A stretch of DNA of 40,354 nucleotides from Leptolinea tardivitalis (GTDB lineage: Bacteria > Chloroflexota > Anaerolineae > Anaerolineales > Anaerolineaceae): contig NZ_BBYA01000005.1 in assembly GCF_001050275.1 (NCBI RefSeq), positions 1-40,354 on the forward strand, in the 5' to 3' direction. The notes beneath the pieces are model-generated. The model was not told where the DNA came from and searched no databases. It worked only from the letters and a program-made list of their open reading frames with translations. How positions within the stretch are numbered: position 1 is the stretch's first letter; each line of letters opens with the position of its first letter. The position numbers and the translations under genes were made by a program. Below are positions 31,769 to 35,228 of the stretch, piece by piece.

Positions 31769-32826
31769 TTTGCCGACCCCATGATGGCTTCTTCCAATGC
31801 ATCCGATTTTGCCGGAATCAACCGGGGAGCCGGCATGCTGGAGGCAATAATATCAGGGTCTTTCATGCCATGACCGGTGCATACAATAGTGATGCGTTTC
31901 CCACTGGCATCAAACCGGCCAGCATTGATTTCATGAATCAATCCAGCCAGACCTGCAGCGGAAGCGAGTTCCACCCATATGCCGCTGGCTGCCAGTTTGC
32001 GTTGTGCCGCGAGAATTTCATCATCAGATACGGCAATAATGCGTCCTTTGGATTCTTCAGCCGCCTCAATAGCCTGTTCCCCACGCGCCGGTTTACCGAT
32101 GCGGATTGCGGTAGCTACGGTTTCAGGGTGTTCCACCGGATGGCCAAGCACCAAGGGTGCCGCTCCTTCTGCCTGAACTCCCAGAATATGCGGCCGCGGG
32201 ATGCCTTTTAATTCATAATATTCCTTAAAACCCATCCAATAGGCTGAAATATTACCGGCATTTCCCACCGGCAGACATAACCAGTCGGGTGAAAAACCAA
32301 GTTCATCACAAATCTCAAATGCAGCCGTTTTTTGACCTTCTAACCGGTACGGATTTAATGAATTGACCAGGGCAATAGGTGTGCGATTTGATATTTCCAC
32401 CACCAGACTGAGGGCATCATCAAAAGAGCCGTCAATCTGGTACACATCGGCTCCGTAGGCTACAGCTCCAGCCAGTTTGCCGGCAGCCACTTTCCCTTTT
32501 GGGATTAATACGATAGCCCGCAAGCCGCTACGGGCGGCATATGCCGCTGCAGAAGCAGCCGTATTCCCTGTAGAGGCGCAGATCACAGCTTTGGCTCCGC
32601 GTCCAACCGCTTCACTTATGGCAACTGTCATACCACGGTCTTTGAATGAACCGGTGGGATTAAGACCTTCAAATTTCACCCACGCCTTACAGCCTTTCCC
32701 AAGTTCCTCCGCTATTCGGGGTATGGGAATCAACGGAGTGCTGCCTTCCAGAAGAGTCACAGTCTGAGTGTGGTCCGGGATATTTAATAAGGGACGATAC
32801 CGATCGATGACACCTTGGACAGCCAT
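31765..32826 (-). CDS. thrC: Threonine synthase
   Basis: A PLP enzyme converting O-phosphohomoserine to threonine. The 353-aa protein is the shorter class: PLP lysine in NPTGSFKDRGM, phosphate-cradle VICASTGNTAASAAAYA, LPVGNAGNISAYWMGF, and the C-terminal ITIVCTGHGMKDPD. AGGAGAC lies upstream of the ATG. A terminator hairpin ends 17 nt upstream of the start, so thrC must have its own promoter or rely on read-through. No threonine-rich leader peptide or T-box was found in the short gap. Confidence 0.97.
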   Translation of the reverse strand: MAVQGVIDRYRPLLNIPDHTQTVTLLEGSTPLIPIPRIAEELGKGCKAWVKFEGLNPTGSFKDRGMTVAISEAVGRGAKAVICASTGNTAASAAAYAARSGLRAIVLIPKGKVAAGKLAGAVAYGADVYQIDGSFDDALSLVVEISNRTPIALVNSLNPYRLEGQKTAAFEICDELGFSPDWLCLPVGNAGNISAYWMGFKEYYELKGIPRPHILGVQAEGAAPLVLGHPVEHPETVATAIRIGKPARGEQAIEAAEESKGRIIAVSDDEILAAQRKLAASGIWVELASAAGLAGLIHEINAGRFDASGKRITIVCTGHGMKDPDIIASSMPAPRLIPAKSDALEEAIMGSAK

Positions 32827-32895: not shown

Positions 32896-33306
32896 TCAAG
32901 CTTCCGGTAAAATTTCAAACGAGGTGGTAATTTCCGCTACGCCACTGATGGTAGATGCGACAGAACAATATTTTGTGTGAGAGAGTTCAATAGCCTGGGC
33001 GATATCCTTTTCCTGGATTCCTTTGCCTTTTACCCGGTAGAGCATATGAATCTTCCGATATGTCCACGGCGGATCAGCATCCTGTTCTCCGGTGACGGAT
33101 ACTTCCAACAGCTCCAGCGGTTGGCGTTTCTTGGTCATGATTTCCACCACATCCACCGAACTGCAGGAGGCTACTGAAACCAACAGCAATTCTGACGGTT
33201 TCATTCCGACACCCTCTTCGGATGTGGACAGAACCACCGAATGATTGGAGGAATCAATGCCCACAAACCGCTTACCACCAATCCATTTGACCTGTGCAGA
33301 ACTCAT
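32896..33306 (-). CDS. OsmC/Ohr-family peroxiredoxin-like protein
   Basis: A 136-aa protein with the OsmC fold. Both family cysteines are present, in LLVSVASCSSVDVVEIMTKKRQP and LSHTKYCSVASTI. These proteins reduce organic hydroperoxides as dimers, though many YhfA-like members have unknown substrates; this one resembles the generic OsmC group. The frame extends upstream, but ATG 33304-33306 is chosen because GGAGG lies just before it and the extra N-terminus has no family counterpart. It is divergent from the Cys-rich sigma factor gene, and the shared region contains an inverted repeat at 33327-33351. Confidence 0.93.
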   Translation of the reverse strand: MSSAQVKWIGGKRFVGIDSSNHSVVLSTSEEGVGMKPSELLLVSVASCSSVDVVEIMTKKRQPLELLEVSVTGEQDADPPWTYRKIHMLYRVKGKGIQEKDIAQAIELSHTKYCSVASTISGVAEITTSFEILPEA

Positions 33307-33326: not shown

Positions 33327-33351
33327 GTTTACAGTTCTCCTGTGTGTAAAC
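33327..33351. promoter_or_regulatory. Inverted repeat GTTTACA-N11-TGTAAAC, operator candidate
   Basis: GTTTACA (33327-33333) and TGTAAAC (33345-33351) form a perfect 7-bp inverted repeat in the osmC leader, between the osmC start and the sigma-factor start. A hairpin role in RNA is the alternative. No regulator is identified. Confidence 0.4.
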
Positions 33352-33424: not shown

Positions 33425-34009
33425 ATGCAAATCGGATGTAAAGCCTGCAATGAAGAGACTCTGCAAACCCTGTGGGAGGTACTTCACGACCGTCTGTATC
33501 GGTTTATCCTCAGCCGGGTGGATAACCCGGATGATGCTCAGGACATTTTGCAATCTGTTTTCTTCAAGATTCACACCAGCCTGGATACAGTCCGAGAATT
33601 GGACCGAATTGAAAGCTGGGTATTCCAGATCACCCGCAATTGTATTAAAGACTACTACCGTCAGCCGGGTAAAACCACCCTGGATGAAAACATCCCGGTC
33701 TTTGATGAGTATGCCAGCCTCGATCCTACACTTCAGGTGGCGGAATATGTGCACGAAGTTGTGAACTCACTTCCTGTCATCTATCGTGAAGCCATTGATC
33801 TTATTGATTACCAGGGGTTGAGCCAACAGGAAGCCGCCCACCGATTGGGTATATCCATATCTGGAATGAAATCGCGTGTGCAACGGGGACGGAGTATGGT
33901 TCGCGAGATTATGATGGCTTGCTGCCATTTTGAATTCGATGCGCGTGGGATTGTTATGGAATACTATGATCCCTGCTGCATATGTGAAAATCAGTCGTCA
34001 AAAACGTAA
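33425..34009 (+). CDS. ECF-type RNA polymerase sigma factor, SigZ-like, Cys-rich
   Basis: A 194-aa sigma-70 family protein. Region 2 (about 15-80) has RLYRFILSRVDNPDDAQDILQSVFFKI and ESWVFQITRNCIKDYYRQ, and region 4 (about 105-160) has LPVIYREAIDLIDYQGLSQQEAAHRLGISISGMKSRVQRGR. The C-terminal tail with ACCHFEFDARG recalls SigZ proteins. Cysteines cluster at both ends: Cys5 and Cys8; Cys166-167; Cys184, 185 and 187 (CCIC). No anti-sigma gene is adjacent. Cys-rich C-terminal extensions in some ECF factors (CorE type) sense metal directly; this is a possible parallel, not shown. It is followed 67 nt later by a permease gene with Cys-x-Cys motifs, probably in one operon. Confidence 0.88.
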   Translation: MQIGCKACNEETLQTLWEVLHDRLYRFILSRVDNPDDAQDILQSVFFKIHTSLDTVRELDRIESWVFQITRNCIKDYYRQPGKTTLDENIPVFDEYASLDPTLQVAEYVHEVVNSLPVIYREAIDLIDYQGLSQQEAAHRLGISISGMKSRVQRGRSMVREIMMACCHFEFDARGIVMEYYDPCCICENQSSKT

Positions 34010-34076
34010 AAATTTGCGTCCATTTCTGATTCAGTGCGTCTATGAAGTAGATACACAAACAACAAGGAGAAACAAA

Positions 34077-35228
34077 ATGGACGCACTAACAATATTGATC
34101 ACCGAATCCGCCGGTAAAGTGTGGACCTCGCTTACCCATAATTGGCCGTACCTGCTTATCAGCGTATTGGTCGCAGCCGCCCTGAAATTATTCACCAATC
34201 CAGATAAGATCACCAACTTTCTGACCCGATACAAGAATGCCGGTGTATTAAGTGCCACTGCAGCCGCCGTGGGAACACCTTTATGTTCCTGTGGTACAAC
34301 TGCCGTGGTACTGGGGATGATGGCCAGCATGATTCCCTGGGCGCCTATTGTGGCATTCATGGTATCATCGCCTCTTTCGTCACCCGAAGGGATCATCTAC
34401 AGCGCCGGCCTGTTCGGCTGGCCGTTCGCGATCTACTATTTCATCATGTCGATCATCCTCGGGTTGGCTGGCGGGGCCGCCGCGGATTTCTTTGAACGGC
34501 GCGGCTGGCTAAAGAATCAAAATCGCATGAATACATTTAGACCGGCAGCAAAGAATGCCCCCTCATCCAACCAGGCGGATGGGAATACCACGATATTCCG
34601 ATCGCCCGAATTAGCTTTCGCGGAAACACCCACCTGTGGATGCGGTTCATCAAATTCCGAGGTCATAATTGACCGAGCTCGCTTCGCTGCGTCAACGGAT
34701 GCGGTCTCATGCTCTTGCAGTGCATCAAAACTGGATGCAGCTGAGGATGCCATTCAGCCAGATACTACCTGTGGATGTGGAAATTCCGACAAACAATCGG
34801 TCAAAGAACCTGTAACCCTTAAACATTTTTTTATGGAAGTATTCGCGGCATCCAAACAACTGCTGATCATGTTCCTCGGGTTTGCCTTCATCGGCTTTTT
34901 TCTGAATGGTCTGATTCCCGAAGCATGGATCAATGTATTGTTTGGGTCGGGGAATTTATACAGCGTGCCCCTCGCGGCCACCATCGGTATCCCCTTTTAC
35001 ATCAACAGCGAAGGGTCGCTGCCATTGGTTAGCTCGTTGATTCAAGGTGGGATGAACCCCGGTGCAGCCATGGCCTTTTTAATCACCGGCGCAGGAACAT
35101 CACTGGGCGCGGTCACCGGCATGTTGACCATTGCCCGCTGGCGTGTTGTCGCCCTGGTGGTTGGCACGCTGTGGGTTGGTGCCATCATTGCTGGTTTTGG
35201 TTTCAATATCCTTATGACAATTCAATAG
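34077..35228 (+). CDS. Permease of the DUF318/ArsP-like (PF03773) family with Cys-rich loop
   Basis: A 383-aa membrane protein with about eight spans in two halves. The family motif VGTPLCSCGTTAVVLGMM (Cys70, Cys72) ends the first half, followed by SSPLSSPEGIIYSAG. The second half has GFFLNGLIPEAWINVLFG and MNPGAAMAFLITGAGTSLGAV. Relatives include ArsP (organoarsenical efflux) and YraQ; the substrate here is unknown. The central loop (about 141-250) is unusually long and carries Cys187-Gly-Cys189, Cys212-Ser-Cys214 and Cys232-Gly-Cys234, which could bind a soft metal or metalloid. The start is ATG 34077 with AAGGAG 8 nt upstream; the longer frame overlapping the sigma gene is rejected. Confidence 0.9.
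   Translation: MDALTILITESAGKVWTSLTHNWPYLLISVLVAAALKLFTNPDKITNFLTRYKNAGVLSATAAAVGTPLCSCGTTAVVLGMMASMIPWAPIVAFMVSSPLSSPEGIIYSAGLFGWPFAIYYFIMSIILGLAGGAAADFFERRGWLKNQNRMNTFRPAAKNAPSSNQADGNTTIFRSPELAFAETPTCGCGSSNSEVIIDRARFAASTDAVSCSCSASKLDAAEDAIQPDTTCGCGNSDKQSVKEPVTLKHFFMEVFAASKQLLIMFLGFAFIGFFLNGLIPEAWINVLFGSGNLYSVPLAATIGIPFYINSEGSLPLVSSLIQGGMNPGAAMAFLITGAGTSLGAVTGMLTIARWRVVALVVGTLWVGAIIAGFGFNILMTIQ

Follow-up and report, generated by a model that had tools for sequence, protein, structure and literature searches.

A gene for a cysteine-rich sigma factor directly precedes a gene for a permease in the genome of Leptolinea tardivitalis (Chloroflexota). Both lie within the window, that is, the whole stretch of 40,354 nucleotides that was analyzed (contig NZ_BBYA01000005.1 of RefSeq assembly GCF_001050275.1), with LexA and a divergently oriented OsmC as the flanking genes. 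The initial annotation of this DNA read the pair as a possible one-protein metal sensor, in which an ECF sigma factor detects a metal or redox state through its own cysteines and drives a matching exporter, much as CorE-type factors carry a cysteine domain of their own. The locus raises the questions of which sigma factor is encoded here, whether it controls the neighboring permease, and which signal it may sense. The features on which the answers are based are collected in Table 1.

Table 1. Features of the sigZ–permease locus, with positions given in the window
Feature	Position	Strand	Description
OsmC-like protein, divergent neighbor	32896..33306	-	PF02566, 67 bits; same position in L030 only
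sigZ, ECF sigma factor	33425..34009	+	194 aa; SigZ family (TIGR02959); Sigma70_r2 and r4_2 domains
N-terminal Cys5-x-x-Cys8 codons	33437..33448	+	CxxC lineage-specific
Vicinal Cys166-Cys167 codons, end of last sigma-4 helix	33920..33925	+	C166 invariant, C167 at least 90% conserved (58 SigZ proteins)
Cys184-Cys185-Ile-Cys187 codons, distal tail cysteines	33974..33985	+	C187 at least 90% conserved (58 SigZ proteins)
SigZ-type promoter TGCGTCC...CGTCT	34015..34041	+	Zero mismatches; -35 and -10 elements 16 nt apart; in sigZ–permease gap
ArsP_1 (PF03773) permease	34077..35228	+	383 aa; 137.7 bits, above the Pfam gathering threshold of 32.3
Family CSC motif (Cys70, Cys72; residues 70-72)	34284..34292	+	Both cysteines invariant across an alignment of 11 permeases from SigZ loci
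Central-loop CGC/CSC/CGC stretch	34635..34778	+	Loop cysteines in several, not all, permeases of SigZ loci

Identity of the Sigma Factor and the Permease

Judged by its sequence, the sigma factor belongs to the SigZ family, an assignment that improves on the initial annotation. The whole protein scores 176.7 bits against the SigZ model, above the curated cut-off of 168.65; the older SigZ model PRK09637 is not reached (180.2 versus 212 bits). The tail pattern CC-x2-E-x-D-x2-G-x4-Y, taken from the present alignments rather than from a published definition, is also present. Direct reading of the DNA confirmed the cysteines listed earlier (Cys5, Cys8, Cys166/167 and Cys184/185/187) and revealed a further one, C73, inside the core. 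SigZ is rare in the phylum: matches above the cut-off were obtained in 10 out of 150 genomes sampled from the class and in 24 out of 350 sampled from the phylum.

The assignment of the second gene to the ArsP-type permeases was also confirmed, together with the three CxC motifs in its loop (CGC at residues 187-189, CSC at 212-214 and CGC at 232-234, as read from the DNA) that accompany the family CSC. Its likeliest start is the ATG at 34077, which has an AAGGAG ribosome site, and the upstream TTG of the longest reading frame is disfavored. The permease shares the Pfam family and the CSC motif with the methylarsenite permease ArsP, the Cu/Zn transporter SO_0444 and SaoE, but has an extra CxC loop, and it remains below the NCBIfam cut-offs for SO_0444 Cu/Zn efflux (NF033936; 113.8 versus 300 bits) and SaoE (100.9 versus 325 bits). 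A search by sequence found no relative with a solved structure. The genome has no ArsM above the cut-off (best match 59 bits versus 263), so methylarsenite, if the permease handles any, would be external. Two further ArsP_1 permeases of the same genome (G000:C10:290911-291789 and G000:C8:127326-128201; loci L256 and L257) have higher Pfam scores than the window permease and are not accompanied by a strict SigZ site.

Selection of SigZ Loci and Controls

Relatives of the sigma factor were sought using patterns in sigma-2 and sigma-4, outside the tail. At least 564 relatives were present in the genome collection, and the best 80, ranked by likeness to the window, were used. Because of this ranking, SigZ loci were also drawn from three samples by means of the SigZ profile, and both sets together comprise 128 distinct loci. 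One locus (L096) was omitted from the tail count and the tree and included in the neighbor and motif counts. The control set consisted of 38 hand-picked ECF loci, namely 30 ECF-sized matches and 8 paralogues.

Arsenic-Type Neighbors of sigZ

Neighboring genes were classified with ArsM-, ArsP_1-, ArsI-, DUF2703- and ArsO-like profiles built from the SigZ neighbors themselves. An arsenic-type gene was found within 400 bp in 59 of the 80 SigZ loci versus 1 of the 38 control loci (p about 2e-14), the single control case being a weak 52-bit match; one of the 59 (L068) depends on an ArsO-like gene only. Since the profiles were derived from the neighbors, outside models were also applied. The NCBIfam cut-offs for arsenite methyltransferase (L011), ArsI/CadI (L095) and the ArsR/SmtB regulator (L107) were passed by one representative each; the ArsO-like representative fell far under the ArsO cut-off (53 versus 425 bits), and the ArsC-like one fell under its own. 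Among 139 proteins encoded next door to sigZ (gap of at most 250 bp, simple open reading frame calls with some false frames), the Pfam families included methyltransferases (18), DUF2703 (14), ArsP_1 (10) and glyoxalases (8). Of the 19 Bacillota loci that the SigZ profile selected, 18 have DUF2703 or ArsM no more than 460 bp from sigZ.

The conserved sigma–permease neighborhood was recovered in other organisms: ArsP_1 also adjoins sigZ in further Chloroflexota, as well as in two loci from Spirochaetota and one each from Bacillota and Ignavibacteriota. By record titles, partner-bearing loci are distributed over 12 phyla (Chloroflexota, Ignavibacteriota, Bacteroidota, Calditrichota, Nitrospirota, Cyanobacteriota, Planctomycetota, Bacillota, Actinomycetota, Spirochaetota, Krumholzibacteriota and Pseudomonadota), although many of them are metagenome-assembled genomes, so individual phyla could reflect binning errors. 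The minimum number of partner changes is 11 on a quick SigZ tree with hand-assigned labels and 31 of 77 inner branches unsupported; the well-supported branches require only 1 to 3 changes per partner type taken singly. Taken together, the neighbors found across the family favor, at the level of gene content, arsenic over a generic metal.

The association has exceptions. In the vicinity of sigZ, 11 of the 128 distinct loci lack both an arsenic partner and a zero-mismatch promoter site. Among the plasmid records of SigZ relatives, of which 5 of 18 were examined, two Priestia plasmids encode a SigZ with the vicinal CC that lacks the distal cysteines, the zero-mismatch site and an arsenic neighbor, and consequently not every SigZ need work alike. 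The SigZ of a Vibrio plasmid possesses both CC and CxxC, but its locus has no zero-mismatch site and no arsenic neighbor; on a Hymenobacter plasmid, arsC and an ACR3 gene are found some 2 kb away from sigZ, and the exact site is absent. ArsR genes occur near some sigZ genes. Another ECF group, bearing a GCAFSHDERDVLVCEP tail at the C-terminus, was also observed (L026:1453-2055 and L027:1453-2049); judged by eye, one copy shares a contig with sigZ and is located upstream of it, and the other comes after an ArsR-like gene.

A Promoter Motif Shared by SigZ Loci

A two-block word search was carried out over 80 upstream regions, from 79 loci and the window. The word GCGTC-16-CGTC occurred in 20 of the 80, compared with a nine-base maximum of 5 in five shuffles, and the aligned sites give the bipartite consensus TTGCGTCCTTTT-N10-CGTCTATA. 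A -10 element of the CGTC type is typical of ECF promoters, and as a sequence the consensus has the shape of such a promoter. An exact site lies near sigZ, defined as 1200 bp before to 500 bp after the gene, in 59 of the 80 loci, and in 49 of the 56 loci chosen by profile (the window included, with some overlap with the first set). The 178 kb near sigZ contain 70 zero-mismatch sites, the 670 kb farther off contain 9, and the 302 kb of control loci contain none. When one mismatch is permitted, 73 of the 80 loci have a site, but this figure includes chance matches, since 52 such sites lie farther off and 15 in control loci; the exact count is safer.

The same site follows the presence of SigZ between genomes. 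For this comparison, 38 Chloroflexota genomes were picked by hand: all 10 above the cut-off in the class sample, 3 more from the phylum sample and 25 without a SigZ match in these samples. The strict site was found in 12 of the 13 SigZ-positive versus 1 of the 25 SigZ-negative genomes (p 6e-8), and each of those 12 has one no more than about 1.3 kb from sigZ. The window's own genome, of 3.69 Mb, has a single strict match, located in the 67-bp gap between sigZ and the permease gene, and zero matches to the reversed control pattern. A larger regulon in this genome was considered and rejected: there is one strict site, and the loose pattern gives 3 sites (two beyond that at 34015) versus 6 for the reversed control. 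Comparison of these sequences indicates that SigZ very probably reads the site at 34015-34041 and drives the permease gene.

Elsewhere, the site precedes DUF2703, ArsM, ArsP_1, ArsI or ArsO-like genes, or genes for AhpD-like proteins (the last identified by eye). Several other targets were observed. SigZ-type sites stand before genes for small CC-rich proteins in L035, L036, L040, L051, L225, L219, L086 and L193; these are possible arsenic-binding peptides, and the one that was scanned (L086) has no NCBIfam or Pfam family match. In the Bacteroidota loci L057, L059, L102 and L103, a site lies ahead of a gene for a MATE transporter or a bifunctional GshF glutathione synthase, divergent from sigZ. 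Extra exact sites at L037:3535, L037:4408, L048:4779 and L083:11975 precede genes that, by eye, are acetyltransferase-like, alpha/beta-hydrolase-like or encode small membrane proteins, which suggests, on the same visual basis, wider regulons in some genomes.

The region upstream of the window sigZ is different. The osmC–sigZ gap contains no SigZ site, even at one mismatch; the nearest one upstream, a one-mismatch site at 32040, falls within the threonine synthase gene. Autoregulation of this sigZ was rejected on these grounds; among the SigZ loci, 23 of the 80 regions that precede operon heads contain the exact TGCGTC/CGTC pair. The gap also holds an inverted repeat, GTTTACA-N11-TGTAAAC at 33327-33351, which is a possible operator of osmC or sigZ. 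The divergent OsmC gene had been taken as a sign of a thiol or oxidant theme, an idea that was not borne out: a relative of it was found only in L030 among the 80 loci. OsmC was rejected as a component of the system and, from gene order, is probably not part of the circuit.

Cysteines of the SigZ Tail

The vicinal CC stands right behind the last sigma-4 helix in 79 of the 79 readable tails among the best 80 relatives, a figure that may flatter the family because these were ranked by likeness to the window. At least two distal cysteines lie within 40 residues of the CC in 76 of the 79 tails, and the conservation of C166, C167 and C187 in the alignment of 58 SigZ proteins is given in Table 1. 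Across the 128 distinct loci, CC is present in all except L018, with L207 and L210 being fragments in which CC is visible. In terms of sequence conservation, the tail cysteines are a signature of the SigZ family. The N-terminal pair Cys5/8, which had been grouped with them, appears to have no general role. Among the 79 proteins, the CxxC recurs only in L030, the nearest relative and also a Leptolinea; the pair was consequently regarded as lineage-specific and rejected as a conserved ligand.

An arsenic partner accompanies 88 of 117 loci with at least two distal cysteines and 4 of 11 with fewer when L207 and L210 are placed in the first class (p 0.011), or 86 of 115 and 6 of 13 when they are placed in the other (p 0.047), an association that is weak because the rows are related. 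Six SigZ proteins from one Chloroflexota family (L233-L238) have the CC but not the distal pair; in these loci the promoter is kept, as an exact site directly 3' of sigZ, and there is no arsenic partner above 60 bits within 500 bp. The SigZ of L011 also lacks the distal pair, yet has an ArsM partner. The AlphaFold model of the window sigma factor (mean pLDDT 85.9, pTM 0.53) has low confidence at the tail end, where the last blocks have means of 61 and 48. It contains two strands (168-171 and 177-181) between the cysteine groups, and in the model these strands could bring the cysteine pairs together.

The absence of an adjacent anti-sigma gene, remarked on in the initial annotation, holds for the window. 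The HxxxCxxC motif in an adjacent gene, by which a zinc anti-sigma factor (ZAS) is recognized, was not found beside its sigZ, and in the first 90 residues it occurs in 0 of 139 SigZ neighbor proteins versus 22 of 67 neighbors of control ECF genes. The zf-HC2 anti-sigma family likewise accounts for 22 of the 67 control neighbors and lies outside the 25 commonest families of SigZ neighbors, the 25th of which has 4 members. As far as gene content indicates, SigZ appears to have no linked anti-sigma factor and to carry its own cysteine-rich tail instead.

Comparison with Known Systems

The window protein resembles the SigZ of B. subtilis by the family model TIGR02959. The table of a 2023 review lists that protein as an ECF factor, apparently with 'N/A' in the anti-sigma column, and gives no function there (PMC10141391). 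Priestia plasmid SigZ proteins differ from the window protein in the features listed above. For CorE, two papers describe a cysteine-rich C-terminal domain and no linked anti-sigma factor (PMC3107203, PMC8999054), and both traits are common to SigZ and the CorE-like factors (ECF44/ECF238). For CorE-like factors, the second of these papers also describes a CxC in the linker between sigma2 and sigma4 that is absent from most ECF238 members (PMC8999054); the window sigma factor has no cysteine in residues 80-105. Unlike the CorE-like factors, SigZ is surrounded by arsenic-type genes. According to the same paper, cysteine-rich C-terminal extensions of ECF287 and ECF288 suggest CorE-like regulation (PMC8999054), a description that SigZ would also fit.

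Proposed Mechanism and Alternatives

The sigZ–permease pair is fairly likely to be a SigZ-type sigma switch, with an arsenical-sensing tail, the promoter at 34015 and export by the permease. SigZ-loaded RNA polymerase would recognize TTGCGTCC(N)CGTCTAT at 34015-34041 and transcribe the permease gene, a step strongly supported by comparison. Because the osmC–sigZ gap has no SigZ site, sigZ itself is probably made from another promoter, and the activity of SigZ rather than its amount is the likely point of control. In the tail of about 29 residues behind sigma-4, Cys166-Cys167, a short beta-hairpin and Cys184-185-x-187 may form a site of three to four thiolates. This site would bind a trivalent arsenical, such as As(III), methylarsenite or perhaps Sb(III), and thereby switch SigZ on. 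The permease would then export the toxicant, which its loop cysteines may help to collect. The best inference is that the tail senses the trivalent arsenical directly, in a CorE-like manner; this is based on the conserved thiol pairs, the lack of a linked anti-sigma factor, the CorE precedent and the absence of a site in the osmC–sigZ gap. Arsenic is proposed as the signal because of the identity of the partners, and on sequence comparison SigZ is probably an arsenic-responsive switch. The initial reading is thereby retained in part: the sigma–permease link, supported by the exact promoter in the gap and the conserved pairing, the tail cysteines, the missing anti-sigma gene and the CorE-like idea stand, and the Cys5/8 role and the OsmC theme do not.

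The main rival keeps the same circuit and changes the signal to another thiol-seeking metal (Cu, Zn, Cd or Hg), which the permease would export, or to thiol oxidation. The permease scores best, below the cut-offs, against the SO_0444 'Cu/Zn' and SaoE models, and the ArsI/CadI family carries the annotation 'heavy metal resistance'. GshF and the small cysteine-rich proteins encoded downstream of some sites hint at thiol stress in general. In Nitratiruptor, Cd and Cu induced an SO_0444-type transporter gene (PMC10092412), and CorE responds to Cu and also to Cd and Zn (PMC3107203). Against this stand the recurrent partners, which are of the ArsM, ArsI, DUF2703 and ArsP_1 types, and the induction of DUF2703-arsO by arsenate in Rhodococcus BCP1 (PMC6514093). 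Another metal or thiol stress is on this evidence rather unlikely to be the signal.

It is less likely again that SigZ is not the sensor and that the arsenic response is supplied by an unlinked anti-sigma factor, or by ArsR or another repressor of sigZ, with the cysteine tail being structural (binding zinc) or serving for fine-tuning. ArsR genes near some sigZ genes could do the sensing, the inverted repeat lies in the osmC–sigZ gap, and tails without the distal pair exist; but no ArsR gene stands beside the window sigZ, the gap has no SigZ site, the HxxxCxxC motif is missing from the 139 SigZ neighbors, and the vicinal CC and distal cysteines are widely conserved. That the two genes are merely unrelated neighbors is scarcely credible: the rarity of SigZ in the class and phylum shows that the pair is not universal, but the exact, genome-unique promoter between the genes and the recurrence of ArsP_1 beside sigZ beyond the window's own genome argue for a link.

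Implications for the SigZ Family

The SigZ family is already known, and what appears to be new here, from sequence comparison, is its association with arsenic genes and the common promoter. In the open-access literature that was searched, no paper was found to connect SigZ to arsenite or to arsenite methyltransferase, although the main 2021 ECF classification may already contain the association in its group notes or predicted promoters. Neither a B. subtilis arsenic review from 2025 (PMC12607644) nor a review of ECF stress responses (PMC8103513) mentions SigZ.

A broader and more tentative reading, which may hold but calls for some doubt, is that SigZ represents a widespread class of one-protein sigma factors that sense metalloids directly. 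The promoter code TTGCGTCCTTTT-N10-CGTCTATA would be fixed across many phyla, and the arsenic-detoxification gene behind it, whether for a methyltransferase, ArsP permease, ArsI lyase, DUF2703 or cysteine-rich protein, would be swapped freely. The conserved promoter makes this claim cheap to test, and regulons can be read directly from genomes. Bacterial arsenic responses are known mainly through ArsR-type repressors. If the reading is true, a sigma factor that senses an arsenical and reads a conserved promoter would represent a logic different from that of these repressors and would provide a portable promoter–sensor pair for arsenic biosensors. It would also supply a function for the SigZ family, in which the B. 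subtilis member lacks an assigned one.
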